A DNA stretch of 28,453 nucleotides, from IMG/VR virus record IMGVR_UViG_3300047550_005214, positions 1 through 28,453 of that record, one strand, 5' to 3'. This document shows positions 1 through 22,126 of this stretch, one piece after another. Position numbers and translations under genes: made by a program. Position 1 is the stretch's first letter. Every line of letters starts with the position of its first letter. A model generated the notes under the pieces. The model was not told the origin of the DNA. It ran no database searches and saw nothing but the letters and a program-made list of their open reading frames with translations. Origin of the DNA: a virus.

Positions 1-1357
1 CTGTACCATTAGATCCTGAAGTACCTGAAGTTCCATCTGTACCATTAGATCCTGAAGTACCTGAAGTTCCATCTGTACCATTAGATCCTGAAGTACCCGA
101 AGTACCTGAACTTCCATCAGTACCGTTAGATCCTGATGTACCACTAGTACCTGAGCTTCCATCTGTACCGTTGGTACCTGAAGTTCCATCTGTACCATTA
201 GATCCTGATGTACCTGATGTACCGTCTGTTCCGTTTGATCCACTTGTTCCTGAAGTTCCATCTGTACCATTCGATCCTGAAGTACCCGAACTTCCATCAG
301 TACCATTCGATCCTGATGTGCCACTAGTACCTGAGCTTCCATCAGTACCATTCGATCCTGATGTACCTGAAGTTCCGTCTGTTCCGTTCGACCCACTTGT
401 TCCTGAAGTCCCGTCTGTTCCATTAGATCCTGAGGTTCCACTTGTTCCAGAAGATCCGTCTGTACCGTTTGACCCTGAGGTTCCACTTGTTCCAGAAGAT
501 CCGTCTGTACCGTTTGATCCAGATGTACCTGAACTTCCACTTGATCCTGATGTTCCATCAACACCACTGACGCCACTCGTTCCTGATGTACCGTCTGTTC
601 CGTTAGATCCTGAAGTACCTGAAGTTCCGTCTGTACCATTACTACCACTCGTTCCTGATGTACCGTCTGTTCCGTTAGAACCTGATGTTCCGCTAGTTCC
701 TGATGAACCATCTGTACCGTTCGATCCACTTGTTCCTGATGTTCCATCTGTTCCATTAGATCCTGATGTACCATCTGTACCATTACTACCACTCGTTCCT
801 GATGTACCGTCTGTTCCGTTGGAACCTGATGTACCATCTGTACCATTACTACCACTCGTTCCTGATGTACCGTCTGTTCCGTTGGAACCTGATGTTCCGC
901 TAGTTCCTGATGAACCATCTGTACCATTGCTACCACTTGTTCCGTTGGAACCTGATGTTCCGCTAGTTCCTGATGAACCATCTGTACCATTACTACCGCT
1001 TGTACCTGAAGTTCCATCCGTACCATTCGATCCTGATGTACCGTCTGTACCATTGCTACCACTCGTTCCTGATGTACCGTCTGTTCCGTTTGATCCTGAT
1101 GTACCTGAAGTTCCGTCTGTACCATTACTACCACTTGTTCCTGAAGTTCCATCCGTACCGTTCGATCCACTTGTTCCTGATGTACCATCTGTTCCGTTAG
1201 AACCTGAAGTACCATCCGTACCGTTCGATCCACTTGTTCCTGATGTACCATCTGTTCCGTTAGAACCTGAAGTACCATCTGTACCATTACTACCGCTTGT
1301 TCCTGAAGTTCCATCTGTTCCGTTAGATCCTGATGTACCACTTGTACCCGATGTTCC
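1..1357 (-). repeat. Collagen-like triplet repeat tract, about 150 Gly-X-Y units
   Basis: On the coding strand a nearly uninterrupted series of 9-base units encodes Gly-Thr-Ser, Gly-Ser-Asn, Gly-Thr-Asp and rare variants such as Gly-Ser-Ser, Gly-Val-Ser and Gly-Val-Asp. The units combine into higher-order blocks of about 15-27 bases. Unlike animal collagen the X position is Thr or Ser rather than Pro. Synonymous changes are frequent between copies, so the tract is not a recent perfect expansion. It continues past the left edge. Confidence 0.9.
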
Positions 1358-2770: not shown

Positions 2771-2789
2771 TTTTTCTTGGTTTTTTGTG

Positions 2790-4388
2790 TTATATTAATG
2801 TGTTACCTTTAAAGTAAATATCGTTAGCTGTTCCATTGAACCTGAATGTTGCATTAGTATATGTTGTGTATACTCTATAAACACCAACAGGGATTGTTAA
2901 ACCTGTTGTTGTTACAGTCAGATTATAGATAGCTGCGGTCATATTGGCGGTTGTTAATGTGTTTGGATCACCAGCGTTATTGAATCCAATTTGCGAAATT
3001 TTTTGGTTGTTTGTTGATCCCGTAGGAACAATAAACGTATACCAAGCGTTCCCTGGTACTGTTCCAGCTGGGACTTGAACTGTTTTGAACAGATATGCCT
3101 GAATTAGATTACCATACGCATCTGTGCCCCCACCTGTTGGTTGTGAATATGCTGTCTGAACAGCCGGGAAACTTCCACCCCATCCTGAGAATGAGATGTA
3201 GTTGTTCATCTGCGTGTTAAACGTTACTTGAACTGTAGAAAGTGCGAGACCGTTTGAGAATCCACGGAATAAACCAGGTGAAGATTGAGCTAACATCCAC
3301 GAGTTGATTTCTGTGTTACCACTTGTTGGCTCGATGAATAAATAGTTTTCAAGTTGTGCGTTAGTTGGAGTTGGTGTAGGTGTTCCTGTTGGTGTAGCAG
3401 TGTTTGTAGGCGTAACTGTCGTGGTATTAGTTGGTGTGACAGTTGGTGTTTGAGTTGGTGTTTGTGTACTTGTTTGAGTTGGTGTGTTAGTTGCAGTATT
3501 TGTTGGTGTTTGAGTTGGCGTTTGAGTTGGTGTTTGTGTACTTGTTTGAGTTGGCGTATTAGTTGGTGTTTCAGTTGGAGTTTGAGTTGGAGTCGATGTG
3601 TTTGTAGCCGTAATCGATGGTGTTGGGGTTGCGGTGTTAGTTGGAGTTTGAGTTGGTGTGTTAGTTGCAGTGTTAGTTGGAGTTTGAGTTTGAGTTGGGG
3701 TCTGAGTTGGTGTTTGAGTTGCTGTTGCTGCCGGAGTGTTTGTAGGTGTTGGTGTAACTGTGTTAGTGGCTGTGATTGATGGAGTCGGTGTAGATGTATT
3801 AGTTGATGTTACTGTTGGTGTATTTGTTGCGGTGGTGGTAGGTGTTACTGTGTTTGTTGGTGTTGCAGTATTAGTTGCGGTAACCGAAGGAGTTGGTGTG
3901 GCCGTGTTAGTTGGTGTTGCAGTATTCGTTGCAGTTACCGAAGGAGTTGGTGTAGTCGTGTTAGTCGGAGTAAGTGTTGGCGTGTTTGTTGGAGTAGCGG
4001 TTTGAGTTGCGGTTACTGAAGGCGTAATTGAAGGAGTGACTGATGGAGTTGGTGTCGCGGTAGGTGTTTCGGTGGCCGTTGGAGTAAGTCCCTGAGTGAC
4101 ACTTGGTGTTGGAGTCTGAGTAGAGGTTGGAGTTGGTGTTGGAGTACAAAGAAACTCAACAACAACACCGTTGAACATTTGAGTTCTTGTCTGTGCACTA
4201 TAATATAAAGTTGCCGCAGAAAGAGGGGCGGGCCAATTACTATAATATACGTTGAATGGTCCTAAAGCATTCGAATTCTGTGCTAAACGCACAATGTAGG
4301 ATGTACAACCTGTAACTGTAAGTTGTTGTTCAACACTCGTATCGCAGCCAGGTGCGGTGTTGACAACAAAAATCGAATATAGCGCCAT
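2790..4388 (-). CDS. Thr/Pro-rich tail fibre or adhesin with mucin-like spacer
   Basis: This 532-residue protein has three parts. Residues 1-81 form a small N-terminal module (MALYSIFVVNTAPGC, then GPFNVYYSNW). Residues 82-343 are almost only Thr, Pro, Asn, Gln, Ser, Ala and Val, in TPT, TNT, TQT and PSVTATNT patterns, and look extended and unstructured. Residues 344-532 form a globular, probably beta-rich C-terminal domain with aromatic and Gly-rich segments (SFSGWGGSF, QIGFNNAG). I do not recognise a named family for the ends. A long spacer carrying a terminal domain, among tail genes, suggests a surface fibre or adhesin that presents its C-terminal domain to the host. The start at 4388 follows a 61-base gap with the TATTTAT motif and no Shine-Dalgarno sequence. 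The N-terminal module resembles the neighbouring 120-residue protein. Confidence 0.7.
   Translation of the reverse strand: MALYSIFVVNTAPGCDTSVEQQLTVTGCTSYIVRLAQNSNALGPFNVYYSNWPAPLSAATLYYSAQTRTQMFNGVVVEFLCTPTPTPTSTQTPTPSVTQGLTPTATETPTATPTPSVTPSITPSVTATQTATPTNTPTLTPTNTTTPTPSVTATNTATPTNTATPTPSVTATNTATPTNTVTPTTTATNTPTVTSTNTSTPTPSITATNTVTPTPTNTPAATATQTPTQTPTQTQTPTNTATNTPTQTPTNTATPTPSITATNTSTPTQTPTETPTNTPTQTSTQTPTQTPTQTPTNTATNTPTQTSTQTPTQTPTVTPTNTTTVTPTNTATPTGTPTPTPTNAQLENYLFIEPTSGNTEINSWMLAQSSPGLFRGFSNGLALSTVQVTFNTQMNNYISFSGWGGSFPAVQTAYSQPTGGGTDAYGNLIQAYLFKTVQVPAGTVPGNAWYTFIVPTGSTNNQKISQIGFNNAGDPNTLTTANMTAAIYNLTVTTTGLTIPVGVYRVYTTYTNATFRFNGTANDIYFKGNTLI
3360..4145 (-). repeat. Thr/Pro low-complexity coding repeat
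   Basis: About 260 codons are built from ACN, CCN and AAC/CAA in 6-base steps. A block of about 35 bases encoding QTSTQTPTQTPT occurs twice (near 3450-3500 and 3515-3560), and PSVTATNTATPTNT occurs twice near 3880-3960. Such short-period DNA is prone to length change by slippage or recombination. Confidence 0.85.
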
Positions 4389-4449: not shown

Positions 4450-4812
4450 TTATGTGGTGACAATTTCGCAAACACAAGATGGTTCGTAAATAGTCAAACC
4501 ACCTGGATCACACACGGTTGATGAAATTGTAATGTCTGTTACACAAGACGCAGTTTCTATTGTAATCAAGAATGAGCATCCGAATCTACATTCTAATAAT
4601 TGTATTTTTTCACACCCATTTGCATCGACCAATTTTAATAAAATTGCCGGTGCAGTAGCAAATGCAGAAGGTAACGTCGCCCCCGTTGGTGGAGGGATGG
4701 TGTCACCCGATAAGATAGTGTATATTAACGTTTCGTTGTTCCCGAAATAATCGGAAACATACACGTTTATTGGGGTAGTTCCTGTGACCGCTAAAATTTC
4801 AACTCTTGTCAT
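4450..4812 (-). CDS. Small Cys-rich tail-associated protein
   Basis: This 120-residue protein starts MTRVEILAVTGTTPINVYVS. I chose the ATG at 4812 over the one at 4821 because it forms an ATGA overlap with the stop of the preceding gene, a common coupling arrangement. The C-terminal half holds seven cysteines (NGC, LEC, FGC, ASC, TVC, PSCVC), which is unusual for a cytoplasmic phage protein and fits an exposed, possibly disulfide-bonded or metal-stabilised structure. The segment PINVYVSDY is close to PFNVYYSNW in the next gene's N-terminus, so the two may share a module. The end of the first half (KLVDANGCEK) resembles the closing strand of the SprB-like repeats encoded just upstream. No family is recognised. 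A role in the tail tip or in fibre attachment is inferred from position only. Confidence 0.65.
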   Translation of the reverse strand: MTRVEILAVTGTTPINVYVSDYFGNNETLIYTILSGDTIPPPTGATLPSAFATAPAILLKLVDANGCEKIQLLECRFGCSFLITIETASCVTDITISSTVCDPGGLTIYEPSCVCEIVTT

Positions 4813-6968
4813 GTCAAGCACATAATATCGTATACTATAATTAGTTCGATAGTCAGTTCTTGATTGTTCATAATTGTTGTTGTCCTGTCAGTTTCGATAA
4901 TAATTTCGTTGTTCAACTGATTAATAGTCACATTTCCAATTCCGTATATTCCTTCGAGTAGATTTTCTATAGTTGAGAACCATAAACTATCCGCAGGAAT
5001 TTGTACTAAACTTGTGCTTGTGAAGAATTGTTGTTGTACCTCAACTCCTAAAGGTTGAATAGATACTTTCGCTGTAAATATGGCTGAAACAAGGTCACAA
5101 TTTGTATTTCCTGATGTCAAATCATCAAATCCTTCGTTATACATTTGACCTATACCTCTTTTTGTTGGAGATGCGACCGTGAATTGTTGTTCTCCCATTA
5201 CATATGATTGGTAGGAAACATAAGTTTGATTACAATCTATAGTCACGGATCTTGTTTGTGAACATCCACTTAAATCGACTATCGTTACTGAATATGTTCC
5301 AGCCGTCAAACCTGTAACTTTAATCCCTTGTGGGTTAGATGGCACATTATCTGACCAAGAAAAAGTGAAAGGAGGTACTCCGTCTGAGATAAATGCGGTA
5401 ATTGACCCGTCATTTCCCGTTCCACAAGAAGTCGAATAAAGATTATATGAAAGAGGAACGCTTCCTGAAACAAAAACATTCGAAACTTGGGTACAACCCG
5501 AAGAATCTGTCACAGTAATTGTATGTTGGCCTGATGAAACGTTTGTAAACGTTACCGCAGAGGCTGTGGAGTCAATATAATTTGTTATACCGTCCAAAGA
5601 ATAATCAAATGGAGAGGTACCTCCCGAAGTTTTTTCAACGTAGATTATACCGTTATTTGCACCACATGTTGTCCCTGTGGTTGAGGTTGTCACAGAGAAT
5701 ATTGCATCCCCAATAATTGTTATTTCTGAGGAAAGATAACAACCACTAATATCTTCAGCTATTACTGTATATGTACCAGCAGATAATTCGGTAAATGTGA
5801 ATGATGCGGCGTTCGAAGTCAAAGTTTCAGTCGAAGCATCGGGATATATTAAAGTATAAGTGAATGGTGATAGTCCACCAATTATAGTGACTAATATAGA
5901 TCCATCAGCCGAGGAACAAGAACTCTGAGTAACTTGAAGTAAAACATCTGTTATACCGTTTTCTGTTGCCAAATCTATACCTGTTGTAAACTTACACAGA
6001 GATGCATCTGTTACTGTGACATTATATGATCCTGCTGGAATTCCTATCATATCGAATTCTTTTAGATAAGAAACTTCCACTTGTCCTGTAGACGCCGAAT
6101 AATAGTATGGTCCTGTTCCACCAGTAATTGTTAATTTTAACCATCCATTACTACTAAAACATGTTGGAATAGTGACAGCAGACCAAAAACCTAATCCAAC
6201 AGGATCCACTTGTCCAACAACTTCTTCCTGTATCAATGAACATCCTGTTGAATCTGTAACTTTTACTGCATATGTACCAGCTGTAAGTCCCGTTAGAGTC
6301 GATCCTGTGGTACCGTCCCCCCAAATATACGTCCATGGCGGAACCCCCGTTTGTCCTGTAATGATCAATTTACCTGACGGTGCTCCACATTGTGTATCTG
6401 GTACTGAATAGAATCCAAAATCTACCGCTACCGAAGGATTAACAACAAAACTTTGGCTAGTTCCGGAACAACCACCTAAATCTACTGATGTTACGTAGTA
6501 TGTTCCCGCAGATAAGTTTGAAAAAGTAAATTGACCGAGACCTGTTGTACCTGATTGTAAGAGTTCGTCGGAGCTTGTATACAAGGCATAAAGAGTTGAT
6601 GAGTAATCAGAACTTGCATCAGCTGTAACCATTCCATTACTTTGGTTACAGGTTGTTGCCGATACATCAATTATACTTGTACAGTTTCCATTGGATATGG
6701 GAACGTTTACTACATACTCCAAGTTGGTTGGTAGTGTAGAATCATTCACTCTAAATCCATAAGTTCCGCTTGTAAGTCCTGTAACTATTGAATAAGTGGA
6801 GTTGTTTCCTGGAATGAAATTATTTATCAAGAAATCTGTGCGACCTATTGGTGAAAACCATTCAACCGTATAAGGTGGAGTACCTCCCGAAAAACCAACT
6901 TGTATTTGTCCAGTTCCAAGACTTTGACAATCACCTGTTATTGATACGATATAGTTAAAATCAGCCAT
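4809..6968 (-). CDS. Tail surface protein of seven SprB-like repeats
   Basis: This 719-residue protein is built from seven repeats of 76-86 residues (about residues 1-585), followed by a different C-terminal domain of about 135 residues. Each repeat has an early Cys, a GG.PP[YF]T-type strand, an AGTY-type turn (residues 69, 155, 231, 313, 398, 480, 557) and, in six of seven, a closing VTD..GC. This is the pattern of the SprB repeat of Bacteroidetes gliding adhesins such as Flavobacterium SprB; the match is from memory, not a search. The C-terminal part (MGEQQFTVASPTKRG to the end) has no repeats and may anchor it to the tail. The start overlaps the previous stop by 8 bases and the end overlaps the next start by 4. 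A role in host binding, or as a decorated fibre shaft, is inferred. Confidence 0.75.
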   Translation of the reverse strand: MADFNYIVSITGDCQSLGTGQIQVGFSGGTPPYTVEWFSPIGRTDFLINNFIPGNNSTYSIVTGLTSGTYGFRVNDSTLPTNLEYVVNVPISNGNCTSIIDVSATTCNQSNGMVTADASSDYSSTLYALYTSSDELLQSGTTGLGQFTFSNLSAGTYYVTSVDLGGCSGTSQSFVVNPSVAVDFGFYSVPDTQCGAPSGKLIITGQTGVPPWTYIWGDGTTGSTLTGLTAGTYAVKVTDSTGCSLIQEEVVGQVDPVGLGFWSAVTIPTCFSSNGWLKLTITGGTGPYYYSASTGQVEVSYLKEFDMIGIPAGSYNVTVTDASLCKFTTGIDLATENGITDVLLQVTQSSCSSADGSILVTIIGGLSPFTYTLIYPDASTETLTSNAASFTFTELSAGTYTVIAEDISGCYLSSEITIIGDAIFSVTTSTTGTTCGANNGIIYVEKTSGGTSPFDYSLDGITNYIDSTASAVTFTNVSSGQHTITVTDSSGCTQVSNVFVSGSVPLSYNLYSTSCGTGNDGSITAFISDGVPPFTFSWSDNVPSNPQGIKVTGLTAGTYSVTIVDLSGCSQTRSVTIDCNQTYVSYQSYVMGEQQFTVASPTKRGIGQMYNEGFDDLTSGNTNCDLVSAIFTAKVSIQPLGVEVQQQFFTSTSLVQIPADSLWFSTIENLLEGIYGIGNVTINQLNNEIIIETDRTTTIMNNQELTIELIIVYDIMCLT
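5214..6968 (-). repeat. Seven tandem SprB-like protein repeats
   Basis: The spacing between AGTY-type turns is 86, 76, 82, 85, 82 and 77 residues. Repeats 2 to 7 carry paired cysteines near their start and end (C107/C167, C194/C243, C270/C325, C351/C410, C435/C492, C515/C569). The copies are diverged and show no obvious DNA identity, so the array is old. Confidence 0.8.
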
Positions 6969-9960
6969 TTGCGCAACTTATCGACATGTTTATTCCAACT
7001 TTCAGACTTAAAACTTCCCCTAAATTTTTGGGTACACAATCTAAATTCGTAACATTCAATATATTACCATTAAGGAAGTAATTCAACCCATATCTATAAA
7101 GATTATCTAAATTGTCTGCTAAGGCATTTCTCCACTGTGAATTGGTTGGTACATCATTGAGTCCAAACCCTTCATAGAAAGGAAAATTAATCAATGAGAG
7201 ATCTCCTAATTTCAAATCAACATACCATTCAGTTGATAAAGTGTTCGAGATACATTCTGTTAACGTTAATCCGCTTTGAGAAAGAAAATTTTGGAGTCTA
7301 TTGAACAAAATACCTTGGAAGTTTGTTACTGATATGTCCCCATTGTTCCATGGGAAAACTCCAAACTCAACGAACTCTGTTGAACAATCATAATTGAAGA
7401 TGTTCGTTATAATAAAACATGGGTCCGTAGGTACTGGAAGAAATTGACATCCTCTTTGTCTTCTCCATGCATATTTTTGTCTATTGAAAATAGAGTTCTC
7501 CATTCTTGTACCACTATTCCAAATAGTTGTGGCTGGTATCATCTGTTCAACTAACTTCATCCAATATGGACCCAACCCATTAATGAAATCAATCATTTTC
7601 TGATATGAATATTCGTTATTAGGTATTCCAATCGTGTTTTGTTGTTCAAGGTATTTCCACCAAATTGATGAAAGAGTTGGATAACCTCCTCCATGTCCGT
7701 CAGTTATGTATAATCTGTTTCTAACGTTGATTGTGTTTTGCCAAAAGGTTTGAGCAAATTCAAAGAAAGTTTTCTTTTTTGGTTCAGGATTAATGTACGT
7801 CCAATCTGTTCCACCTGGTCCTGGGAAAGGTGCAGTAAATCCTGTTTCAGGTATAGGGTAGTTGTAAAGTCTTGACTGATTCCAAACATCATAAACTAAT
7901 CCTTGTGCAGGATTTAAAAACAAATCTACATTCTTAACATTCAGAACTAACTTCTCATTATCCAAATAATAATACGCCTCATAACCAGCGTCAGTTGCAA
8001 TTCTCAAATCATTATCATCTGAGACCCAAGACTTTTTATTATCTAATGTTTTTTCTAATTTGAATCCCTCGGTCATGTATGGAAAATCTCTATATCTTTG
8101 GAGATAGATTTGTCCATATGTAAACGGCTCAAGTTGTGTTTGATAGTCTGGATTAGCTCCTGTATATGTTTGGTTAAGTAATGGCGTGTCAGGACTTCTA
8201 TGTTGTGGTGTAGTCTCGTACCAACCAGCACCCACTTGGAAAAAGTAATCATCCGTGTTTACGGGAGCGTAAGGGAAACCTTCTATATCCACAGGATATG
8301 AGGCAGCATCCAAGTAAACTTGTTCCAAACTTGTTGAGGATGTGTAAGCACTATATGTGACTCCCTTGATTTTGTATGTCACTGTTGAGGACAATGAAGG
8401 AACAGTGTTAACATATGTTCCTCCTGATATCTGCGCGTATTGAACGGCAAATGAATCCATATTTATTTTCTGATCCGCGAGGTAGATTGTTTCATTAAAC
8501 TCTACTAACGCTTCGGGAGCACCAATCAATCTCAATAAAAATTCAACAGATTTTCTTGTTCCCTTGGATCTGAACAAATAACCTGAGTTCAGAATTAAGT
8601 TTCTATAGTATTGATAATTCAATTCATTCGGTGTAAGAGCTCTCGCATATCCTGGATAAGCTGGTTCATTTGTCTGTCCGAAAATGGCATCCAAAAAGTT
8701 TTCATTTGTGATTGGAGATATGTTAGGTTCCCAACCTAAAGTAGCTGCCAAGTTTTTCAATAGCATTGATGGGATATCATTTTGGACAGTATAATTGACA
8801 GAAGTCATATTAGCCATTCCATCGATGAATAGTTTTACCTCATCGAAACTTCTACCATATATCTGAAGTATTTTTTCAACCTTTCTATCTTTTGTATCAA
8901 ACTCTTTGAATGAGTCTTGAATTAAAAATCTTGAAAGTAAATTTGTTTTATAGGAATCAAGTTCTGCAGATACTGTACCAACTTGGTCGAGATAGTATTG
9001 AAAAGCGTTTGTTCTGATGTCCAAATTCCAATCGCCATCCAAAGGCCATGTTAGTGGTGTGAAATTGCTATAGAATTGACCATTTTGATCTTCGGCTGGA
9101 ACTTGAAAAACGGCAGTGTAAATCGGTTCAACTAATCTATTCAACAAAAATTTCTCAACTTCATCGAATGCTTCCGCAAATACCTGATCAACTATCAGAT
9201 CATTAGGTCTGATGTTAAAATTCTGTGAATAGGTTGTTGCTGTAGTTCCAAATGGTGAACCTGAAACATAAAATGTTAGACTACCTGATGATAAAGTTTG
9301 GGATGGCTCAAAAGATAGTACTTTGAAGATATCATAAGGATTTGTTGTATTTCCTGAGTTAGTAATTGCAATACAATAATCCAAATAAGTTTGACTTAAA
9401 TTCCTCAAAGGAGAAGCGACGATTTCTCTTGCAATGATGTTGGTTGATGCTGAGACTGAATAATCAATCGCAAATGGGTTTACTAATCTATCTACGTCAA
9501 CATCAAAGGTCGTTTCATCATTTATCTGATCGTATACAATGTTGTAAGCCGTGAATCCAGTGGTAGACTGTAAATTTATAAATCTTGATTCCAAAGCCGC
9601 AGGGAAATGATTGATAATTCTTGTGATTGAAACCTCCAATCTTTTAGAAAGAGATCCATACATTGAAAAATTAGTAACCTCAGTCAAATCCAAGTTTGGA
9701 TATACCCTGAACTCTTTTGCAAAAATTAATCTACTTTCTGCGACCTTATCTACCTCCAAACTTTCCAAACTTATTGGTTCAGAAAATGCACCTATATTAA
9801 AAGTCCTATTAACCTTTTCAACTATCGAAGTTGTAAAATCAAAATTACCTTGCGTGAGACCTCCTCCCTCTACAAGTTGTAATCCAACTATGTTATCGGA
9901 GAAAGTTCCACCACCTGATCCAGGTCTTGGAGGATAATAATATTTTATTACTTGAGCCAT
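6961..9960 (-). CDS. Large tail/baseplate protein with gpI-like motif
   Basis: This 999-residue protein starts MAQVIKYYYPPRPGSGGG. Its middle (residues 355-490) is helical-looking: KDRKVEKILQIYGRSFDEVK, then NLAATLGWEP, then YYRNLILNSGYLFRSKGTRK followed by SVEFLLRLIGAPEALVEFNE. The pattern of a short helix, SKGT/RKS, and LLRLIGA is like that of P2 gpI-type tail proteins, which join the baseplate wedge to the fibres; this resemblance is from memory. Residues 740-860 contain many aromatic residues (Trp, Tyr) and may be a structural beta domain. The ATG at 9960 is in a TAATG overlap with the previous gene, so the two are probably co-translated. It precedes the fibre genes, which fits a hub or fibre-connector role. 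No exact family is claimed. Confidence 0.65.
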   Translation of the reverse strand: MAQVIKYYYPPRPGSGGGTFSDNIVGLQLVEGGGLTQGNFDFTTSIVEKVNRTFNIGAFSEPISLESLEVDKVAESRLIFAKEFRVYPNLDLTEVTNFSMYGSLSKRLEVSITRIINHFPAALESRFINLQSTTGFTAYNIVYDQINDETTFDVDVDRLVNPFAIDYSVSASTNIIAREIVASPLRNLSQTYLDYCIAITNSGNTTNPYDIFKVLSFEPSQTLSSGSLTFYVSGSPFGTTATTYSQNFNIRPNDLIVDQVFAEAFDEVEKFLLNRLVEPIYTAVFQVPAEDQNGQFYSNFTPLTWPLDGDWNLDIRTNAFQYYLDQVGTVSAELDSYKTNLLSRFLIQDSFKEFDTKDRKVEKILQIYGRSFDEVKLFIDGMANMTSVNYTVQNDIPSMLLKNLAATLGWEPNISPITNENFLDAIFGQTNEPAYPGYARALTPNELNYQYYRNLILNSGYLFRSKGTRKSVEFLLRLIGAPEALVEFNETIYLADQKINMDSFAVQYAQISGGTYVNTVPSLSSTVTYKIKGVTYSAYTSSTSLEQVYLDAASYPVDIEGFPYAPVNTDDYFFQVGAGWYETTPQHRSPDTPLLNQTYTGANPDYQTQLEPFTYGQIYLQRYRDFPYMTEGFKLEKTLDNKKSWVSDDNDLRIATDAGYEAYYYLDNEKLVLNVKNVDLFLNPAQGLVYDVWNQSRLYNYPIPETGFTAPFPGPGGTDWTYINPEPKKKTFFEFAQTFWQNTINVRNRLYITDGHGGGYPTLSSIWWKYLEQQNTIGIPNNEYSYQKMIDFINGLGPYWMKLVEQMIPATTIWNSGTRMENSIFNRQKYAWRRQRGCQFLPVPTDPCFIITNIFNYDCSTEFVEFGVFPWNNGDISVTNFQGILFNRLQNFLSQSGLTLTECISNTLSTEWYVDLKLGDLSLINFPFYEGFGLNDVPTNSQWRNALADNLDNLYRYGLNYFLNGNILNVTNLDCVPKNLGEVLSLKVGINMSISCANG

Positions 9961-11976: not shown

Positions 11977-12761
11977 TATGGATTCACATATTCATACCAT
12001 TTTATGGGTACTAGCCCGCCCACTCTCTGTGGAGTGGCTAAATAGGTGTCGAATACTTGATAGGAATGAGTTTCATAATCAAGATCGACTCTATAATAGA
12101 AATATTCATTGGAGTTGAATGAATACTTATCTCCTTGAATTGAAGATTGAGGTCTGTTCATCATTCTCTTGAATTGTCCTATTTTGGCATTGAAGAATTT
12201 AGCCGACATGTAGAACCTATTAATATTCAAGAATGTTCTTTTCTTTAACCAATAAATAAAAAATCCTTCTTTATCCCCAACATAGTCCAAAACAAACTGC
12301 GGTCTTCTGATCAACACTTGAGTTGTTTGCATTGTTGCAGACATTCTGATTCCCTGTTGTGTTGGTAAAATTATTGTCAGATAGTTTTTCTGTTCTGCTT
12401 CAATTGGACTATCATATAAATCCAATTTGAAAAATGAATTTGTAAATGAGTTTGAATAGTAATAAACTTCCTGTGTTGAGAATCCATCCGCTCTGTAATC
12501 CATTTTCCAATTGTTGATATCGGTAAGACCATTTCCTTCATAGAAATACATTTCATAATTCATGTCAGATCTATTCTGATAATCCGCATGAACAAATCTG
12601 GTAACCTCGAAATCCTTGTCGGTTTTCAAAAGTTGGGAAATTGCCTTATCTTGAAATTCAACAATGTCGGTTTCAACATCCAAATATTCCCAATCTGTAT
12701 TGATTGGAATATTGATTTGGTTTGTTACACCCGAAAATAATATTTGTTTATTCACACTCAT
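11976..12761 (-). CDS. Unknown tail-cluster protein
   Basis: This 261-residue protein begins MSVNKQILFSGVTNQINIPI. It is rich in Tyr, Phe, Asn and Asp and has no recognisable motif, signal peptide or membrane segment. Features include a FYWLKKRTF-like basic aromatic patch (around residue 170) and a C-terminal GGLVPIKWYEYVNP. Its ATG lies 14 bases inside the end of the preceding gene and its stop shares TAATG with the next, so translation is probably coupled and the product amounts balanced with its neighbours. It could be a baseplate wedge or tail fibre adaptor; I cannot say which. Confidence 0.6.
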   Translation of the reverse strand: MSVNKQILFSGVTNQINIPINTDWEYLDVETDIVEFQDKAISQLLKTDKDFEVTRFVHADYQNRSDMNYEMYFYEGNGLTDINNWKMDYRADGFSTQEVYYYSNSFTNSFFKLDLYDSPIEAEQKNYLTIILPTQQGIRMSATMQTTQVLIRRPQFVLDYVGDKEGFFIYWLKKRTFLNINRFYMSAKFFNAKIGQFKRMMNRPQSSIQGDKYSFNSNEYFYYRVDLDYETHSYQVFDTYLATPQRVGGLVPIKWYEYVNP

Positions 12762-14454
12762 CTACAACTGGCTTTGGAACTTTAGTCTCAATGTTAGAGG
12801 ACAGACCAATAACAGGTGAGAATTTAGACCCTTCGGGTATAAGTCTGAAAAAATCATTCTTATATGGATAGTGACTGAAGTTAATAAACGGAAAATCCAC
12901 CCCGTTACCAGCTTCATCCAAGAACCCATATGTATAAAGATCTCTCCAAAAGAATTCTTTGTAATTGTTTGAGTAATATGACCAAAATGGTACGTTGTCG
13001 ACTTGATTAACTTTTCCTCCCTCAACATAATTCGAAAACTCTCTTATTTTCATAGCGATGTGAGGTTGATAGTAAAATCCATTTGGATTTGTTGTTGGGG
13101 TATCGGATGTTTTAAAAATATCTTGATTGTATTTTATCTTATGGTAATAAGGTGAAATGACAGTTTCTTGTTGAGTTATATTATTCCACTCACACCAATC
13201 CCCACAAAGCGTGTCCCCTGAAACTAAATCCAAGTTATAGTAAAAGGTTTCTGTCGATCCACTTGTCAGAGTGTATGAAGAATATGAAATGTTAGAGTTT
13301 GAATTTATATTATTTTGATCCCAATATAGATTATTGTTTTGGGTAATATTGAACTGCCATCCCTGTTTCACTCCAGTGCCTTGATAAGGTTTGTTAAAAT
13401 AACCTGAGAAACCCTTGTTTACAATAGTTAAAAATATTTGGTTGAGGGGTCTTTTTTGGTTGTCCAACTGAGTTTTGAAATCCAAATCATAATTCATTGT
13501 AAAGGTGTATGTTGAAGATCCATTCTTTTGAGATATTCGAGAAATGTTGTTCGGGGTCAAAGATGAGAATTCAAACTTCTTGTTGGCGGTAAATGGAGTT
13601 TCTTCAAATCCAGTTTTGGTTACAACCAAATCATTTGGATTTGTTATTACCTTGTGCATCCTAACATAATAACTTGATATGGTTTCTGCAGAATTTGATA
13701 TGTCTCCGACTTTTCTAAAAATTCCAACCTTGTTGTTTGCGAATGTATTCCCTGTGTATCCGATATTAAAAAGATTGAAAATATATGTATCGGATCCCAA
13801 AGTTCCGTTACCCAAAGCATTCACCTGAAAGAAATTTTGTCCGTTGTATCCAAAGTTGAAATATACGTAATCTCCAACTTTTAAATTATGTTGTGTTATA
13901 CACTTACAAGATATGATGTTCGTTCCATTTATCTTTAGATTACTGATTATAAATGGTATTCCATCACTCGCTATAAAATTAATTTCTGTTACACCATCAG
14001 TCCAATACATTTTTTGGGTGTAGTTGTTTTCGTAAGGAATGGTGATATTGTACATCCAATTGTATGTGTAAGCGCTTTTTGAAATGTATGTAAAGTGTTG
14101 GTCTCTCACATCTGGTCTGAAGAACTCGAACTCATAATACTGAGGGAATCCTTTCCAAAGGCCACTCTTGACTGATGTTACCGCATCTACATAATAAAGG
14201 TTATTAAGGAATGGAATGTATTCGGTTGTACCAGTATATGAATTTTCATATATCGGGGCAATTTTAAATGTGGGTCTGAACGTTGTTGAAGCTTGTCTTT
14301 CATCATCAAATAACTGTGCTAAATTGACGGAAGCAATTCTATCATATTCCGTCAACTCATTAGATTTCGACTCAAAAGGAACTTTGAGTTGTTGATCAAT
14401 GGATGGTGCTGATTTATATCTCAGCTTACTTGGTACTATGGTCACATCTGCCAT
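12748..14454 (-). CDS. Probable baseplate wedge-type protein, unknown family
   Basis: This 568-residue protein starts MADVTIVPSKLRYKSAPSID. I chose the ATG at 14454, which overlaps the previous TGA as TGATG; a TTG three bases upstream would add one residue but is less likely. The composition is dominated by Asn, Tyr, Phe, Thr and Ser with a low charge, as in large beta-structured virion proteins. In T4 the gene after gp6 and gp7 is gp8, and this gene occupies that place, but I do not see enough similarity to claim gp8. No membrane segment or signal is seen. Two paired Cys segments (ISCKC and TLCGDWCEW) might stabilise the fold. Confidence 0.6.
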   Translation of the reverse strand: MADVTIVPSKLRYKSAPSIDQQLKVPFESKSNELTEYDRIASVNLAQLFDDERQASTTFRPTFKIAPIYENSYTGTTEYIPFLNNLYYVDAVTSVKSGLWKGFPQYYEFEFFRPDVRDQHFTYISKSAYTYNWMYNITIPYENNYTQKMYWTDGVTEINFIASDGIPFIISNLKINGTNIISCKCITQHNLKVGDYVYFNFGYNGQNFFQVNALGNGTLGSDTYIFNLFNIGYTGNTFANNKVGIFRKVGDISNSAETISSYYVRMHKVITNPNDLVVTKTGFEETPFTANKKFEFSSLTPNNISRISQKNGSSTYTFTMNYDLDFKTQLDNQKRPLNQIFLTIVNKGFSGYFNKPYQGTGVKQGWQFNITQNNNLYWDQNNINSNSNISYSSYTLTSGSTETFYYNLDLVSGDTLCGDWCEWNNITQQETVISPYYHKIKYNQDIFKTSDTPTTNPNGFYYQPHIAMKIREFSNYVEGGKVNQVDNVPFWSYYSNNYKEFFWRDLYTYGFLDEAGNGVDFPFINFSHYPYKNDFFRLIPEGSKFSPVIGLSSNIETKVPKPVVDECE

Positions 14455-17400
14455 CAATCTAAATATTTTTTAGCAAATCTGTTTAATGCTGTTTTTCCAA
14501 CACCAAGACCGAAATAAAAATGGAAAGGTAATCCTACGGTAAAATATGTGTTTGTGTTTACTGGATCATAACTTGGAGAATCAGGCGTATTTTTATCACC
14601 CTCAAATTGATATGCTTGAGCTTCAGTACCAGGGGAGAATAATATATTACTTCTGTTGTAGATATAACCCTTCATGAAATCGGCCTTTGGATTCTCACCC
14701 ATAAAATAATTCGACATGATATCAGTTCTGTTCAATGATTGGTAATTACTTTTCTGTATTGCTGATGTTCTCCAATCATTATCTTCAGTCCCGAAAATCG
14801 TATTACTATCTTGGGTTGTCCAAGAATAAAACGGAACGGATTGGGATTGGCTTCCTAAGTAATCATATACTGCGACGTTATATGGAACCTCGTCGTTTCT
14901 GATCAATCTTCTAGGTGTAATTAAATCTCTTGTCTGAGTGTCCGAAGAATAAAAAACACCAAACACCGGTTGTTTCGATCTATCTTGGCCGACAAAGAAT
15001 GGATTATTTGTACTTGAGCCAGATTGAGCAGTGTATGCCTCGAAATTGAAAGATTGTACTCCTATTTCAGAGTTGATTGAAATCATTTGAGCAAAGTCTC
15101 CGTCAACTTTATCCTTATTTCTACTAAAAAATGAATTAATAGATCCATCCCCGAGTTGTAATAAGTTGGCCAACCAACTTGAATTAATTTGTCTTGACAC
15201 AATAAACAAATTCAACAAGTCCGATGTGTCTTGGTAAGTTGTTGATTTCATGTTTGTCATATTGTATCCGTAGAAATCCGCATTCAAAGTAATTTCTTGA
15301 GTGAACGCATCTCTCGGACCCATATCCAAAATGGTAGTTGGGAACATGATTTCTTTTTCATTACGTCTGAATTTTGTGTCCGTCCTTGATCTTCCGATAA
15401 AATTTGTTCCGTTGTATGGAGTTGCCCTATAATAGAAATTATTTGTATTATGTAACAAAAGTGTTTGTTTACAAAATGTATTATATGGTCCGTTCGGATC
15501 AACAGGATCAAGTGGTGATTTGAAAAATCTTAAATTTCTGAAAGGAAAATGGTATAACACCCCATTTACCCAGTTATTGATGAAACTCAATCCAAAAACT
15601 CCCCTACATGCGGCAAAGTTCACTCTTGTCCTTGCTTTAAACTCTCCGAGTTGTTTGAAATCATTAGGTAGTGATAAAATTACTTTACTAACGAAAACGT
15701 AACATCCACCTTTAATTACTGTCTTTTTGTAACAATCATTAGTGGTTGGATATACTCCGAAGTTCTCTGAGTCGCCCGAATAACATTTTAGTGGGACGAG
15801 TCCTTGACATGAAAAAGTGCTTTGGAATTGCTCTTCGAATTGACTTGTAACCTCCTGAGCATTACCAATAAGAAATGAACTTGTAGTATCTTCATAACCC
15901 TCAACAACGCCTTCATCACTTATGAAATAAAAACTCATGTTTAAATTTTGGTGAAGAACATATGTATTCTCAAAATTTGTAGTTCGTGAAGTAGATGTTG
16001 GAAGTCTATCTGTTCTCATTACGATTTTTTGTGTTGCAGGTAAAACTTGTAATGTTGTTCCTGTGGAATATGCGGGTGAAAAATAAACGTAACTCGAAGG
16101 TCTGTATCCATACACTCCTGCACCGCCTCCTATTCTTTCCGATGATGCATAAAAATATGATCCCCCTTCAAGATATTCATCATCCCAATATCCATTCATT
16201 TTTTTACCAGGGCCAACATTAGAATAGTAATACCCAAAAGCCCCCCACCATGAATCTCCCATAGCATTTAAAACCGAATTAAAATAAGGTTGTCGGTCCA
16301 CTTGTGGGTAACTTGCTTTTGCGAAAGCATTGACTGACGTTTCTGCTTTGACAAAAGGTCCTAATCCACTATTGTTTACAGATATTTTGGGTGAATTTAG
16401 TCTTGAAAACGAATTAGAAGATGATACTTGAAACGTGTTTATTGAAGTTGAATCGAGTGATGAGTAGTTAGAATGCATGTTTGTAGTATATCCCGAATAA
16501 TTTGATCCTGGTTGGAATGAATAAGAATCAAAAAATATTGGATCATTAGGGTTACTTTCATTGGTGGCGAATTGATTGTGTCTCGGTAAGACTAACCCTT
16601 TTTGGATAGGGATGTTTAATTTATATCGAGATTCTACTTCCACAGATCCGTAGGGTTGGCCAAAGAGTCTACTGATATCGACTTTGGTTTTCTGTCTTAC
16701 TGAATTCGGATCAACTCCTCTTTGTAAAAATACAACGACTACACTTTGAAAATCATCGAAAGCGTAGAATGGTCGTGTTACATAAGTAGGTCCATAAGTT
16801 TCTGTGATTGTTCCTAAAAGAGACGAGTCAATACCAGTATTTTCCCACATGTAATATGCGCCGCCAATATATCTCTCATTTAAACTTTTTTGTCCCGTGA
16901 AGACAGAAGGACAATTAGCCGCAAAGTTTGAATAAGTCATTGCGGTAATAACTTGGTAATATTCACAATCTGATTTTGCTCTATTGTATTTGAGGAACTT
17001 TGGCACTGAACAGGTTGCTGAAGTGACCGAGACTCCCTGGTATTCATATAAACTACTTACACAGATTGCACCTACTACAGGGGTTGTACCTGAATGATAA
17101 ACTCCATCACAGTCAGTATAATACCACTCATCTCCGGTTACTGCGGTAACTGCACCTACATAACAATTTTCTATTACATCAGCTGGTTGGTCAACAACAT
17201 AACTTGTAGATAGATTATTATTTGGGTTGTCTGGATCTGCATACTGCACATGGATAGACGATATATTTTTTGCTGTTCCAACCACTGAAGTGAATCCCGA
17301 AAAATTAATTGGACCCTTGTCAGTGTTCGGGTCCAAAGAATTGAATGGGTTTTGAAATGACAAAACTCTACCCGTTGTAAAATTACTAAGTGAGTCTGGA

Positions 17401-19730
17401 TCACACAAAATCGTTATTGTATTATCGAAATGATATTGACCAGCGTTAGCTGGATTGTCATAATTTACATAAGTTTTCACTTGGTTGAAACCTCCATAAT
17501 CATTAAAATATTGGTGTTTTAAGTTAAAAAGGTTCAATCTTTCTGTGAGAGTCAAATCAAACGAAAGTTTTAATTTATTTACATTTTGATTATTCATACC
17601 CTCAACAGGATTTCCCGTTCTTTGAGCAGCATTATTTTCATTGACTCCGGCAATCAACCTTTGGACAGAAGTCTGTCCAGCAACCATGTTACTTCCAGCG
17701 GTCTGATTGTCACACATAGTTTCGGCAACTTGTTGGGTTAGGAAGTTGGTTGAGTAATATTTGAACCATGGGTCATTAGCACAGTATGAAGTATCAAATA
17801 AATTACCATAAGAAACTGGGTTTGGAGTATTAACAAGTAAACTTAAAGAAGTTGTTTTCAGAGATTCTTCCACGAAAGCTTGAACATTTGGGTTCGATTC
17901 AGGTGTTTCGTTAGTACATGAACATAACTCACAATCAGGATAAGTTATGGTTGGAAGGGCAATATTCTTAAATGGATTCCCAAGTGAATTGAAAATGTCT
18001 TTGAAGGATGGTGGTTTTTTACAGGATATACTTACAAATGGTATTGCATCAATAACCTTACAAATAATATAAACGAACCATGCCAAAGTGCCGTAAACAA
18101 AGGTGATCAATATTTTAAGAATTGGCCATAAAAAAGCCAAGATATGAACAACTATCATCAACGGAATCAACAACAATGTGATGAAGGTGAAGAAAAAATT
18201 GAATAAAATAAAAATCAAATCAAAGTTTTTGACCGCATCATTTGTTGGGAACTTGTTGTTTGTTGAGTCGCAAGTAGATTCTGATATTTCTTTAATACCT
18301 AAAAATCTCCCTCTGTTCAATCCATTGTGATACCCATCCATGAATTGTGAAACAGTATAGACTTTATTGTAGGAGAATTGGTAGAACTTATCTTTACAGT
18401 CAATAGAATCCTGAATCATTTGATTACCTAAAGTTGTACCAGTTTTTCCGTAATCATTCCAATCCAATGAAAACGCATAGGAATTTTGTAGTGCTTGGTA
18501 TTGTGTAGATCCTGTTGGAAATGTTGTGTAAGGGTCAATCGTGGAATTTGTCCATCCATATTCCCTAATATTAGGAACCAAATAATACCCTCGTTTGACT
18601 TGTTCCCCCAAGTCAGGGTTTTGTTCCCACTTTACTTTGAACCTGTATTTTGCTTTAGTTGGAATACCTACATTCGGGTCTAACGAAATTGATCTTTCGC
18701 CAAATTCATTTGTAACGATATATTCTAAATTCATTGGAAGATCCACTAACCAAGCACCGTTCTCGTCGATGACTTTAGCACCTCCATCAAATTCATAAGT
18801 TTCCAAAACAGGTCTTCCATCAGAGTCTTGTCCAACTGTTTGTCTTATACATAAAATCTCTCCAGGTCCCGATACCAAGTCACAAAGATTTCCCGCTTCT
18901 GTAGATGGTTTACAATTTTTTCGTAGTACTCTCGAGTCAGGTGCGGAAACAACTGATCCCATGAAAACTGCGGTCGGTTGAATGTCGATATTCGCATCGT
19001 CTCTCAGATCAAAATCAACTCTATTAATTGCTATCTGACAAACTTCAGGTTGACCCCAAAGTGGTGAAACATCAACTACGGCTTGGAGTTTTATTATCTG
19101 TGGAAGTGAATTCAAATCAGGTGAAGCTTTGAAACTGTTTCCATTCAGTTGGTTCTCGGAAGCCCTCCCCATTCTTATTAAGTCCTGAGGTGTCAAACTG
19201 AATTCACCAATGTCAGAAAGATCTGCATCCATGAAAACTGTCTGTGTACCTAAAGGTACTCCCATAATCATATAGTCTCCGCTATCGTTTGTCCTAACGG
19301 TGTATTTGTAATACTTGTCATATACCGATACAACAGTTGGGTTAGTAAGAACGTCATTCCTTGATGGGAATGTTCCAGTTGGTACATGGGAAGAATATGA
19401 CTTCTCGTACGGTAATAGATTGTATCTATAACCATCCTCGTTATTCTGATTAGTAGACTTATAAGGGTAAAGTGTGGAAATTATCTCGTTGTTCTCATCT
19501 TCTTCTTGTAGCGGAACAAATACTGATACTCTTACATTAGGAAGACCAAAGCCACCGTTAGCCGTTACACGACCAATGATGACCCCGTAGTCGGCACAGT
19601 TTCTTGTATAGATATCCTGACTCTGAATTTTCAAAGAAAGGATTTCAAGAAAATCAAACTCTTGATCTATTTGAACATTGATTGTCTGATCTGACCCAAC
19701 TTGTGTCTTAATTCTATACGAATTACCCAT
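14454..19730 (-). CDS. Giant baseplate/tail protein with hydrophobic block
   Basis: At 1758 residues this is the largest gene of the window. Residues about 48-175 resemble a carboxypeptidase-regulatory-like beta fold (VIIGRVTANGGFGLPNVRVS at 50-69, then NDSGDYMIMGVPLGTQTVFM at 148-167) with an insertion in the middle. Residues 503-565 are almost wholly hydrophobic (FDLIFILFNFFF, LIPLMIVVHILAFLWPILKI, GTLAWFVYIICKVI), enough for two or three membrane helices. A short Cys cluster follows (C570, then C600, C603 and C605 in DCELCSC). The remaining 1100 residues are Ser, Asn, Tyr and Phe-rich and probably beta-structured. It follows gp25 and gp6 homologues, the place of gp7 in T4 (1032 residues), but no clear similarity to gp7 was seen. 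The TATTTAT motif is 14-22 bases before the ATG. Confidence 0.75.
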   Translation of the reverse strand: MGNSYRIKTQVGSDQTINVQIDQEFDFLEILSLKIQSQDIYTRNCADYGVIIGRVTANGGFGLPNVRVSVFVPLQEEDENNEIISTLYPYKSTNQNNEDGYRYNLLPYEKSYSSHVPTGTFPSRNDVLTNPTVVSVYDKYYKYTVRTNDSGDYMIMGVPLGTQTVFMDADLSDIGEFSLTPQDLIRMGRASENQLNGNSFKASPDLNSLPQIIKLQAVVDVSPLWGQPEVCQIAINRVDFDLRDDANIDIQPTAVFMGSVVSAPDSRVLRKNCKPSTEAGNLCDLVSGPGEILCIRQTVGQDSDGRPVLETYEFDGGAKVIDENGAWLVDLPMNLEYIVTNEFGERSISLDPNVGIPTKAKYRFKVKWEQNPDLGEQVKRGYYLVPNIREYGWTNSTIDPYTTFPTGSTQYQALQNSYAFSLDWNDYGKTGTTLGNQMIQDSIDCKDKFYQFSYNKVYTVSQFMDGYHNGLNRGRFLGIKEISESTCDSTNNKFPTNDAVKNFDLIFILFNFFFTFITLLLIPLMIVVHILAFLWPILKILITFVYGTLAWFVYIICKVIDAIPFVSISCKKPPSFKDIFNSLGNPFKNIALPTITYPDCELCSCTNETPESNPNVQAFVEESLKTTSLSLLVNTPNPVSYGNLFDTSYCANDPWFKYYSTNFLTQQVAETMCDNQTAGSNMVAGQTSVQRLIAGVNENNAAQRTGNPVEGMNNQNVNKLKLSFDLTLTERLNLFNLKHQYFNDYGGFNQVKTYVNYDNPANAGQYHFDNTITILCDPDSLSNFTTGRVLSFQNPFNSLDPNTDKGPINFSGFTSVVGTAKNISSIHVQYADPDNPNNNLSTSYVVDQPADVIENCYVGAVTAVTGDEWYYTDCDGVYHSGTTPVVGAICVSSLYEYQGVSVTSATCSVPKFLKYNRAKSDCEYYQVITAMTYSNFAANCPSVFTGQKSLNERYIGGAYYMWENTGIDSSLLGTITETYGPTYVTRPFYAFDDFQSVVVVFLQRGVDPNSVRQKTKVDISRLFGQPYGSVEVESRYKLNIPIQKGLVLPRHNQFATNESNPNDPIFFDSYSFQPGSNYSGYTTNMHSNYSSLDSTSINTFQVSSSNSFSRLNSPKISVNNSGLGPFVKAETSVNAFAKASYPQVDRQPYFNSVLNAMGDSWWGAFGYYYSNVGPGKKMNGYWDDEYLEGGSYFYASSERIGGGAGVYGYRPSSYVYFSPAYSTGTTLQVLPATQKIVMRTDRLPTSTSRTTNFENTYVLHQNLNMSFYFISDEGVVEGYEDTTSSFLIGNAQEVTSQFEEQFQSTFSCQGLVPLKCYSGDSENFGVYPTTNDCYKKTVIKGGCYVFVSKVILSLPNDFKQLGEFKARTRVNFAACRGVFGLSFINNWVNGVLYHFPFRNLRFFKSPLDPVDPNGPYNTFCKQTLLLHNTNNFYYRATPYNGTNFIGRSRTDTKFRRNEKEIMFPTTILDMGPRDAFTQEITLNADFYGYNMTNMKSTTYQDTSDLLNLFIVSRQINSSWLANLLQLGDGSINSFFSRNKDKVDGDFAQMISINSEIGVQSFNFEAYTAQSGSSTNNPFFVGQDRSKQPVFGVFYSSDTQTRDLITPRRLIRNDEVPYNVAVYDYLGSQSQSVPFYSWTTQDSNTIFGTEDNDWRTSAIQKSNYQSLNRTDIMSNYFMGENPKADFMKGYIYNRSNILFSPGTEAQAYQFEGDKNTPDSPSYDPVNTNTYFTVGLPFHFYFGLGVGKTALNRFAKKYLD
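18036..18224 (-). other. Coding segment for 2-3 predicted membrane helices
   Basis: This segment covers residues 503-565 of the giant tail protein, about 63 residues with almost no charges, only one Lys in the centre and one near the end. No other protein of the window has a comparable block. Confidence 0.75.
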
Positions 19731-19820: not shown

Positions 19821-21659
19821 TTAAGAGAACTGAACGTTTTGGAAGTTCTTAACTCTCACCGTGATATCCTTTTGTGGATATCTGATTTGATAAACCTGAT
19901 TTGGTTGTGCAAATATTGTATCGTCTACAGGTAGAATCTGTTTTGTAATTGGGTCTTTATAAGCCATCGATGTTTGTGATGATGAGTATTGACCACCAAC
20001 CTCATTGAATACATCGACTGCCGTTACAGTGATTACTCCGTTTTCATCTTGTATGATACTATTGAGTTGTGATAGATAAATGTTCTGACCAAGATTTCTA
20101 ATTTGTGGATCCAAGAATGCAGATATTTTATTCACAATGTTAGTTACAACTTGTCCTTGGTTTTGTGTTGAGTCTAATACGACTGATATATCTATACTCA
20201 AGTCTATAACTTCTGCTGTCTCTATCGAAATATAGTCATTCATCATTCTATAGTTGGACAGATAGTTGGCTAAGTTTTGTTTAAGAGTGTTTGAAACCAC
20301 TGAGGTCAACTTTCCTGAAGTGTCGTAAGACAATATTTGAACATTAATCTTATTGTTGTTTTCAGTAATTGCTACTTTTGCTGGTGCTCCGAATTGAGAT
20401 GGCATTTTTCTTATGATTGCTTCATAATCATTTACCGTCACGGCTCTGTTTTGTGATGAGAAGTTGAATGATACATAGTTTCTGGCCTCTTCTATAGTGG
20501 GTTGTCCTGCACCTCCAATCGCGGCGGTCACGTTATTACATCTTAGAGATCCTACAACTTGTTGGTTAATGTTCTCTGAAGGACCGTTTACAAAAAAGGT
20601 TACAGTTCCTATTTGATTGATGACATTTGTACCCACATTTGTAGACAATCCACCACCTGTCCTATATTGGATAAACAAAGTAGTATTTGCCTTTAGTGCG
20701 GAACCCAAAGACATGTTGTTTTGGTAAAGCTGGAGGTTAAGAGGAACTCCTAAAGTTGTAAACTGATTTAGAGCATCTTGTGAGGTGTTTGTTCCTCCTC
20801 CAAATGTCATTTTTAAAAATCCTTCGGGTGTATATTCAGTTATGAATCTGTCTTGAGTTTGGATATATCTTCCAACTTTGATACCTGGTTGGTCTGAAAC
20901 CTTTGTTGGGTCCTCGATGAAAATTCTATCTTCGGCTAATGCATCGACTTCATACCATCTATTTTGCAAACCCAAGAACTCATTCACAGTAGGTACTGAT
21001 GTGTAACTTGTACCATCCTTAAGTAGAACGCTCGTAACACCCAAAACATTCTTTTCAGGAAGAAATATTTCTAAGAATGGTCTCACATCACTTGGTCCGA
21101 TTACTCTTTTGAAAACTTTAGTAAGTCCATTAACAACAACCTCTCTTTTAGTTATAGTGTAGTTAACTAACCTATTACTTGAATCAAAGTTTGGAATTTT
21201 AAGTCTATTCGGAAATCCCTGAGAGTTATACGGTGACGCAAAATCTATATCGTCAACATTTTCAAATACTTGACCTGCACCCAAAACTTGTGATCCTCTT
21301 CTGAGTTGTCCCAAATATCTTTCATCCTCTTTATCACCCAAAGCAGGAACCGTAATTGAAAAATCTACAAGAGCAACAGAAGGTCTTTGTCCCGGTAATT
21401 TCAGACCATAAGTTCTGGCGATATTATAAATTGAAGACCTTTGCTGTGCGTATTGTAATACTGTCTCTTGTATACTTCTATCGATGTGATAGTGTAAATT
21501 ATCTGCAACCGCCGCGTTCAAATCCAAGAATACTGAGAATACAGAAGCGTCGTTGAAATTTTGGATAAGCTCAGGATAATAAGTTCTTACATATTGTATA
21601 AGTTCCTGTCTTATTCCTTCAAAATCTCTCGTAGTATATGATATCTTACGGTTGGCCAT
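19821..21659 (-). CDS. Baseplate wedge protein, gp6-like (baseplate J family)
   Basis: This 612-residue protein begins MANRKISYTTRDFEGIRQEL, a typical opening of T4 gp6/baseplate J proteins, followed by FNDASVFSVFLDLNAAVADN and HYHIDRSIQETVL. The C-terminal part carries the usual gpJ-like pattern around PTIEEARNYVSFNFSSQNRA and VNDYEAIIRKMPSQFGAPAK. T4 gp6 has 660 residues, so length fits. In T4 it forms the inner ring of the baseplate wedge and drives sheath contraction. The ATG at 21659 is five bases after the gp25-like stop. The order gp25 then gp6 is conserved in many contractile tail clusters, which supports the call. The family identification is from remembered motif similarity. Confidence 0.85.
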   Translation of the reverse strand: MANRKISYTTRDFEGIRQELIQYVRTYYPELIQNFNDASVFSVFLDLNAAVADNLHYHIDRSIQETVLQYAQQRSSIYNIARTYGLKLPGQRPSVALVDFSITVPALGDKEDERYLGQLRRGSQVLGAGQVFENVDDIDFASPYNSQGFPNRLKIPNFDSSNRLVNYTITKREVVVNGLTKVFKRVIGPSDVRPFLEIFLPEKNVLGVTSVLLKDGTSYTSVPTVNEFLGLQNRWYEVDALAEDRIFIEDPTKVSDQPGIKVGRYIQTQDRFITEYTPEGFLKMTFGGGTNTSQDALNQFTTLGVPLNLQLYQNNMSLGSALKANTTLFIQYRTGGGLSTNVGTNVINQIGTVTFFVNGPSENINQQVVGSLRCNNVTAAIGGAGQPTIEEARNYVSFNFSSQNRAVTVNDYEAIIRKMPSQFGAPAKVAITENNNKINVQILSYDTSGKLTSVVSNTLKQNLANYLSNYRMMNDYISIETAEVIDLSIDISVVLDSTQNQGQVVTNIVNKISAFLDPQIRNLGQNIYLSQLNSIIQDENGVITVTAVDVFNEVGGQYSSSQTSMAYKDPITKQILPVDDTIFAQPNQVYQIRYPQKDITVRVKNFQNVQFS

Positions 21660-21664
21660 TTATC

Positions 21665-22126
21665 TTAAATATTGATTATTATAAAATCACTGCTTGCAAA
21701 AGCTGCGTCCTGAACCGAATATTCTATCTTAACTTTTGCGGTATATTCAGCGGTACCTTTTCCTGGATATTTGTAGATTGAGGATTGAGCTTCATCAACA
21801 ACATATTGATCTTCCGTTTCTTCTGCGGGATCCAAAGGTTCTATCGAAATTTTATCTAGTATTAGGTTCGGAATATACTTTTCTACGTTAGCTCTGATAT
21901 CGGATTCAATTGCGTCAAAAGTTAATCCATCAAATGGTTCGAAAAGAAATTCATACAATCTAGTTCCGAAGTCCGGTAGAAAATATCTTGACCCTTTTCT
22001 TGTTAGTAAAAGATTTATTAGGTCAGCACGTATTTCTTGATTGGCGGTATTGGTAAGCTCCAAATAATCACCCGTCAAAGAATTACGAAAAGGAAAATTT
22101 ATACCATATGTAGTACCATTACCCAT
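21665..22126 (-). CDS. Baseplate wedge protein, gp25-like
   Basis: This 153-residue protein has the gp25/GpW-type core at residues 36-66: NLLLTRKGSRYFLPDFGTRL followed by YEFLFEPFD. This stretch with the RxGxR and FGTRLY motifs is characteristic of the T4 gp25 and type VI TssE family, a wedge component where sheath assembly begins. T4 gp25 has 132 residues; here about 20 extra residues lie in the second half (EEDQ-type acidic part, around 100-110). It is followed after five bases by the gp6-like gene, as is common. The TATTTATG motif starts five bases upstream of the ATG at 22126. Confidence 0.88.
   Translation of the reverse strand: MGNGTTYGINFPFRNSLTGDYLELTNTANQEIRADLINLLLTRKGSRYFLPDFGTRLYEFLFEPFDGLTFDAIESDIRANVEKYIPNLILDKISIEPLDPAEETEDQYVVDEAQSSIYKYPGKGTAEYTAKVKIEYSVQDAAFASSDFIIINI

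Follow-up and report, generated by a model that had tools for sequence, protein, structure and literature searches.

A conserved membrane-type hydrophobic segment in an unnamed giant protein encoded beside the baseplate genes of uncultivated phages

Little is understood of how contractile-tailed phages pass their DNA across the inner membrane once the tail tube has pierced the outer layers. The membrane-active candidates known to us are mostly tape measures or ejection proteins. Here we analyze P0001, a 1758-residue protein encoded on the minus strand (14454..19730) of the virus record IMGVR_UViG_3300047550_005214, the whole of which (28,453 nucleotides, or 28.4 kb) is the window to which all plain coordinates refer. 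For the long hydrophobic block of P0001, the nearest precedent is pb2 of phage T5, which comprises a 46-residue hydrophobic stretch that is compatible with two transmembrane helices and has been proposed to insert into the outer membrane (PMC10038345). However, pb2 is a tape measure inside the tube of a siphophage, whereas P0001 is beta-rich and encoded between gp6 and a gp7 counterpart of contractile-tailed phages. In the thylakoid-anchored contractile injection system, the tail-fibre/baseplate components Cis13 and Cis12 are extended to contact the membrane, with Cis13 doing so via a transmembrane helix (PMC8894136), and in Streptomyces the transmembrane protein CisA is encoded just downstream of the baseplate genes (PMC12237407). 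The likeness of both to P0001 is by description: Cis13 and Cis12 tether the machine of the producing cell to that cell's thylakoid membrane, while CisA is a single-pass protein, undetected in purified particles, with a periplasmic-binding-like C-terminal domain. Structural cysteine residues in a contractile tail and baseplate have been described in Agrobacterium phage Milano (PMC10811340), in the form of inter-chain disulfides in wedge and sheath proteins; in contrast, P0001 harbors a CxxCxC motif beside its hydrophobic block, as seen in sequence only.

A hydrophobic block conserved in an unnamed family

The initial annotation had pointed to a 63-residue, nearly uncharged and membrane-like block in this protein of the baseplate locus. 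The block is real, but its low charge is ordinary: residues 503-565 contain only four charged residues (D504, K539, K558 and D561), and 36% of composition-preserving shuffles hold an equally charge-poor 63-residue stretch, so we discarded "uncharged" as an unusual property. The exceptional property is hydrophobicity, which is strong in residues 504-565, with the best 63-residue Kyte-Doolittle mean in P0001 reaching 2.11, beyond all shuffles (0.64 ± 0.17, maximum 1.32, n=2000), and the best 19-residue hydropathy reaching 2.79 vs. at most 1.44 in seven neighbouring tail-module products of the window. Residues 505-522 show an Eisenberg mean of 0.95 with a moment of 0.21, a transmembrane-type combination without an amphipathic face. 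Judged by these hydropathy and Eisenberg values, the block (residues 505-561; 18048..18218, minus strand) is a hydrophobic segment able to span a bilayer. In two long relatives (65 kb and 144 kb), no other large open reading frame (ORF) near the baseplate or sheath genes has such segments; both encode a 601-aa ORF, tape-measure-like by look and place, which contains no hydrophobic segments and has no family match.

Conservation was assessed in three samples comprising a) relatives retrieved by a DNA pattern for YPDCExCxC, and hence biased toward the cysteine motif; b) contigs found through gp6, with no selection for their P0001 homologue content; and c) relatives retrieved by a DNA pattern encoding YDKYYKYT, a peptide of the N-terminal part that lies about 370 residues ahead of the block, with no selection for block or cysteines and counting only loci absent from the other samples. 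Following gp6, a P0001 match was present in 77 of 80 gp6 loci, the remaining three contigs ending shortly past gp6, and the block together with CxxCxC was found in 49/49 sufficiently long relatives of sample b. In sample c, 70 of the 73 assessable relatives carried the block, which was followed by CxxCxC (61/70), CxxC (7/70) or CxC (2/70). Among the three negatives, L214 and L274 truly lack the block, while L209 leaves its contig near the expected block position. Of the distant relatives from contigs of metagenome-assembled genomes (MAGs), L315, L317 and L318 are without the block and L316 has a different hydrophobic block. Conservation of block and cysteines among homologues is strong, and the worry expressed at the outset that block-less homologues might be common was not borne out, as they are rare (2-3 of 73 when sampled regardless of the block, five in all) and each is remote. 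Apparent exceptions were rejected on inspection. In L216, a frameshift moves the block into the next frame; block-less flags in the cysteine-motif sample concerned records truncated at the 5' end, where the block fell outside the search window, as confirmed for those whose sequences were inspected; and several labels of a block lacking cysteines reflect a window that was too short, the motif being present in both L007 and L122. The P0001-homologue ORF is frameshifted at differing places in L216, L033, L145, L160, L043 and L052, probably owing to sequence errors.

The block-less proteins retain the N-terminal region of P0001 (residues 1-470; 18321..19730, minus strand), which is beta-rich and the best conserved part of the family. 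In a tree of the N-terminal domain (68 rows), four of the five fall into one well-supported divergent group of ten that also includes block-bearing proteins, and the fifth is a very long branch; details are unsafe given the long branches. L315 (747 aa) keeps, in addition to this region, a SWINGSLY motif and a YFYFGL C-terminus that resemble NNWVNGVLY and FHFYFGL of P0001. A homologue of the 569-aa gene next to P0001 follows block-less L214, L274, L315 and L317, and gp25 and gp6 precede in L274. In our reading, an older protein acquired or lost the block as a segment, which the main group has kept almost without exception. Within the block, sequence has drifted while character has been kept: among 95 relatives, median identity to P0001 is 35% in residues 505-538 vs. 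60% in the N-terminal domain, with substitutions at hydrophobic positions staying hydrophobic in 82% of cases in the block vs. 67% in the N-terminal domain. The first hydrophobic run extends without interruption over a median of 23 residues. The interval from Cys 487 to Cys 605 spans 95 to 178 residues in relatives, with one to four strong segments, and this variation in block length and segment number is more in keeping with a membrane segment than with a rigid, packed core.

As the initial annotation had supposed, no matching family was found. P0001 gave no match in Pfam, PHROGs or NCBIfam, its profile gave none among PDB sequences, and tblastn gave none in the 50,697 phage records of INPHARED, where the same tool finds 102 records for the neighbouring gp6. 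A hand-made consensus and distant relatives as queries likewise had no match in the named libraries. P0001 has no Carboxypeptidase regulatory-like (PF13620) match above the Pfam cut-off, four distant relatives scoring 14.5-17.7 bits against a cut-off of 32.3, and a suspected link to a tail (muzzle) protein of crAss-like phages was dropped, with no PDB sequence match even at E 1. P0001 homologues form a real, widespread family that is frequent in IMG/VR, its gene immediately following gp25 and gp6, and that has no name in any of the family libraries checked. Its membrane-type segment is nearly universal and lies where none is expected.

Predicted fold and flanking cysteines

AlphaFold2 (96 sequences) predicts a continuous helix for residues 505-561 with a predicted local distance difference test (pLDDT) score of about 84-93, and low confidence around the cysteines. 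The N-terminal beta domains score mostly >90 from residue 50 onward, and the less conserved C-terminal part (residues 700-1758; 14457..17633, minus strand) is mostly beta, with a mean pLDDT of 79. This mainly beta model departs from that of a tape measure protein, which is long, mainly helical and fills the tail tube. Foldseek searches of PDB yielded only generic beta-sandwich matches for the N part and no fold match for the C part; the N part also matched A0A8S5LA66, an uncharacterized protein of Myoviridae sp. ctPuP5 (E 8.8e-46, 39% identity over 462 columns), in whose 994-residue model the fold is as in the N part of P0001. Relatives often show a polar or Pro/Gly turn (WPILK, WNNFAVP, LLKYILGP) after the first hydrophobic run, and the block is therefore probably a hairpin with its turn near residues 534-540, extending to three or four helices in some relatives. 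As to whether the region is instead a buried core, AlphaFold2 offers a confident long helix, but it models neither membrane nor oligomer.

The cysteine cluster at 570, 600, 603 and 605 that had been noted initially is present in full, with Cys 600, 603 and 605 (YPDCELCSC; 17916..17933, minus strand), after the block, being conserved; Cys 570, kept in 15/96 relatives, was rejected as a member, and Cys 487, just ahead of the block (18270..18272, minus strand), belongs in its place. Cys 487, 600, 603 and 605 are invariant in the main clade (96/96 relatives), a set that was partly motif-selected but whose 24 gp6-found members were unselected and all have the motif. P0001 has a total of 27 cysteine residues, and CxxCxC arises in 0.85% of shuffles. 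Since the four residues bracket the base of the putative hairpin, their arrangement suggests a metal site or a disulfide clamp. In the family alignment, the C-terminal part displays invariant Cys 1308, 1316, 1333, 1343 and 1375, a WVNG motif and the FHFYFGL C-terminus. This second conserved cysteine set, within residues about 700-1758 (14454-17633), may represent another metal or disulfide site.

A possible role in envelope penetration and its rivals

We surmise, giving the idea slightly less than an even chance, that P0001 associates with the baseplate and that, during infection, its hydrophobic hairpin enters an envelope membrane, by analogy with the T5 pb2 segment. This reading is grounded in: 1) hydropathy beyond that of shuffles, the near-universal block and a hydrophobic character kept despite divergence; 2) the constant place of P0001 in the baseplate gene cluster of phages with sheath genes, along with the pb2 precedent; 3) the lack of such segments in other large ORFs near the baseplate and sheath genes of the two long relatives. 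In this scheme, P0001 would be a large protein, produced together with the baseplate of uncultivated contractile-tailed phages and probably carried in the virion, with an old beta-rich module, encoded beside gp6, at its N-terminus and the transmembrane-type helical segment lying between this module and the C-terminal part, its base bracketed by the conserved cysteines. As long as the tail is at rest, surrounding protein would shield the segment and the cysteine site would hold it in place, whether by metal or disulfide; on contraction, it would be released to insert into the envelope membrane, where it may anchor the tail tip or line a passage for the tube and DNA. We put this function forward as a testable hypothesis and not as a result. 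A membrane-type segment that is conserved in a protein of the baseplate locus would suggest a second way across the inner membrane. A wider proposal, which we consider doubtful but worth stating, is that P0001 represents an undescribed class of envelope-penetration protein in contractile phages, a baseplate-borne giant rather than a tape measure, which delivers a cysteine-clamped membrane hairpin to open or line the passage through the host envelope and serves a very large group of uncultivated phages.

Several considerations weigh against insertion. That P0001 is present in the virion and that it enters a membrane are both predictions from sequence, its hydropathy is also compatible with a buried oligomeric bundle, and AlphaFold2 draws a single continuous 57-residue helix and not a hairpin. 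In addition, five distant relatives do without the block, which is thus not indispensable for such tails, and the mechanism demands that a hydrophobic segment be kept shielded in a water-exposed baseplate.

The alternative that survives best, albeit an unlikely one in our judgment, is that the block forms a hydrophobic helical bundle buried in protein, with several copies packing in the baseplate so that the segment never meets lipid. The single long helix predicted with high confidence at residues 505-561 would fit such a bundle, as would the hydrophobic helices of T5 pb2, which are coiled together inside the resting tail (PMC10038345). However, the block has no polar face (moment 0.2, mean 0.9), and both the variable number and length of its segments and the pattern of substitution within hydrophobic residues suit lipid better. 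Somewhat less probable again is that P0001 works within the producing cell as a membrane anchor or checkpoint, for instance by holding baseplates at the inner membrane during assembly, with no role in injection. Cis13 and CisA furnish precedents for a producer-cell membrane anchor (PMC8894136, PMC12237407), but the large beta-rich flanking domains of P0001 and its constant place in the baseplate cluster look structural, and a permanent anchor would presumably hinder free phages, which must exit the cell.

The term "baseplate wedge protein" in the initial annotation turned out to be a positional label. It is another window product, a 999-aa protein (6961..9960, minus strand), whose profile matches the gp7-position large protein of the related cultured Microcystis phage Mel-JY01 (E 2.7e-8) and, weakly, that of Flavobacterium phage immuto (E 3e-4; both in a 379-sequence search), while the P0001 profile found nothing significant in the baseplate regions of immuto, LR756508 and Mel-JY01. 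Designation of the 999-aa protein as gp7 rests on its position, PDB and PHROG searches having given no confirmation. Given that gp7-position proteins are matched by the 999-aa protein and not by P0001, the latter seems to be an additional protein encoded between gp6 and the gp7 counterpart, and is probably not the gp7 wedge subunit. We therefore set aside, as very improbable, the notion that P0001 is itself a gp7-type subunit with the block as an incidental, lineage-specific decoration, even though it is large like gp7 and directly follows gp6, as T4 gp7 does in the established gene order, since the near-universal conservation also speaks against an incidental block.

Gene neighbourhood, phage type and minor observations

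In transcription order, the window begins with UvsX-like, exonuclease, DnaB-like and ribonucleotide reductase genes, followed by a gp25-type baseplate wedge protein (21665..22126, minus strand; Pfam PF04965, PHROG 261), a gp6-type baseplate wedge protein (Baseplate_J; 19821..21659, minus strand; Pfam PF04865, PHROG 219) and P0001. Next to P0001 lies its constant downstream partner, the 569-aa protein (12748..14457, minus strand), which adjoins block-less relatives too, and then come 261-, 358-, 301- and 999-aa genes, an SprB-repeat protein and fibre-like repeats. The SprB repeats, as in Bacteroidota adhesins, lie in a tail-module protein at 4809-6968 (minus strand). Beside the fibre gene, a Thr/Pro-rich protein with TPTPTNT repeats is encoded at 2790-4388 (minus strand), and the fibre-like protein itself (2-2770, minus strand) carries long GTSGTSGSNGTDG collagen-like repeats and is interrupted by the window end.

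Predicted gene content marks the phages of the P0001 family as contractile-tailed, with a sheath match at E <= 0.001 in 12/17 long records, six of them above the family cut-off. Based on the SprB repeats in the neighbouring product, the Flavobacterium host of a gp6 relative and Bacteroidota MAG labels, these phages probably infect Bacteroidota. The sheath-like ORFs, at about 910-1290 aa, are much longer than T4 gp18 (L333:754-4593; L327, 45401-48604 of the record; L317:6966-9698), and in L333 a homing-endonuclease-like ORF (4677-6230) comes directly after the sheath gene. In L316, a phage contig binned to a Mycoplasmatota MAG, a DnaB-like helicase ORF (1846-4383) contains an intein-like insert.
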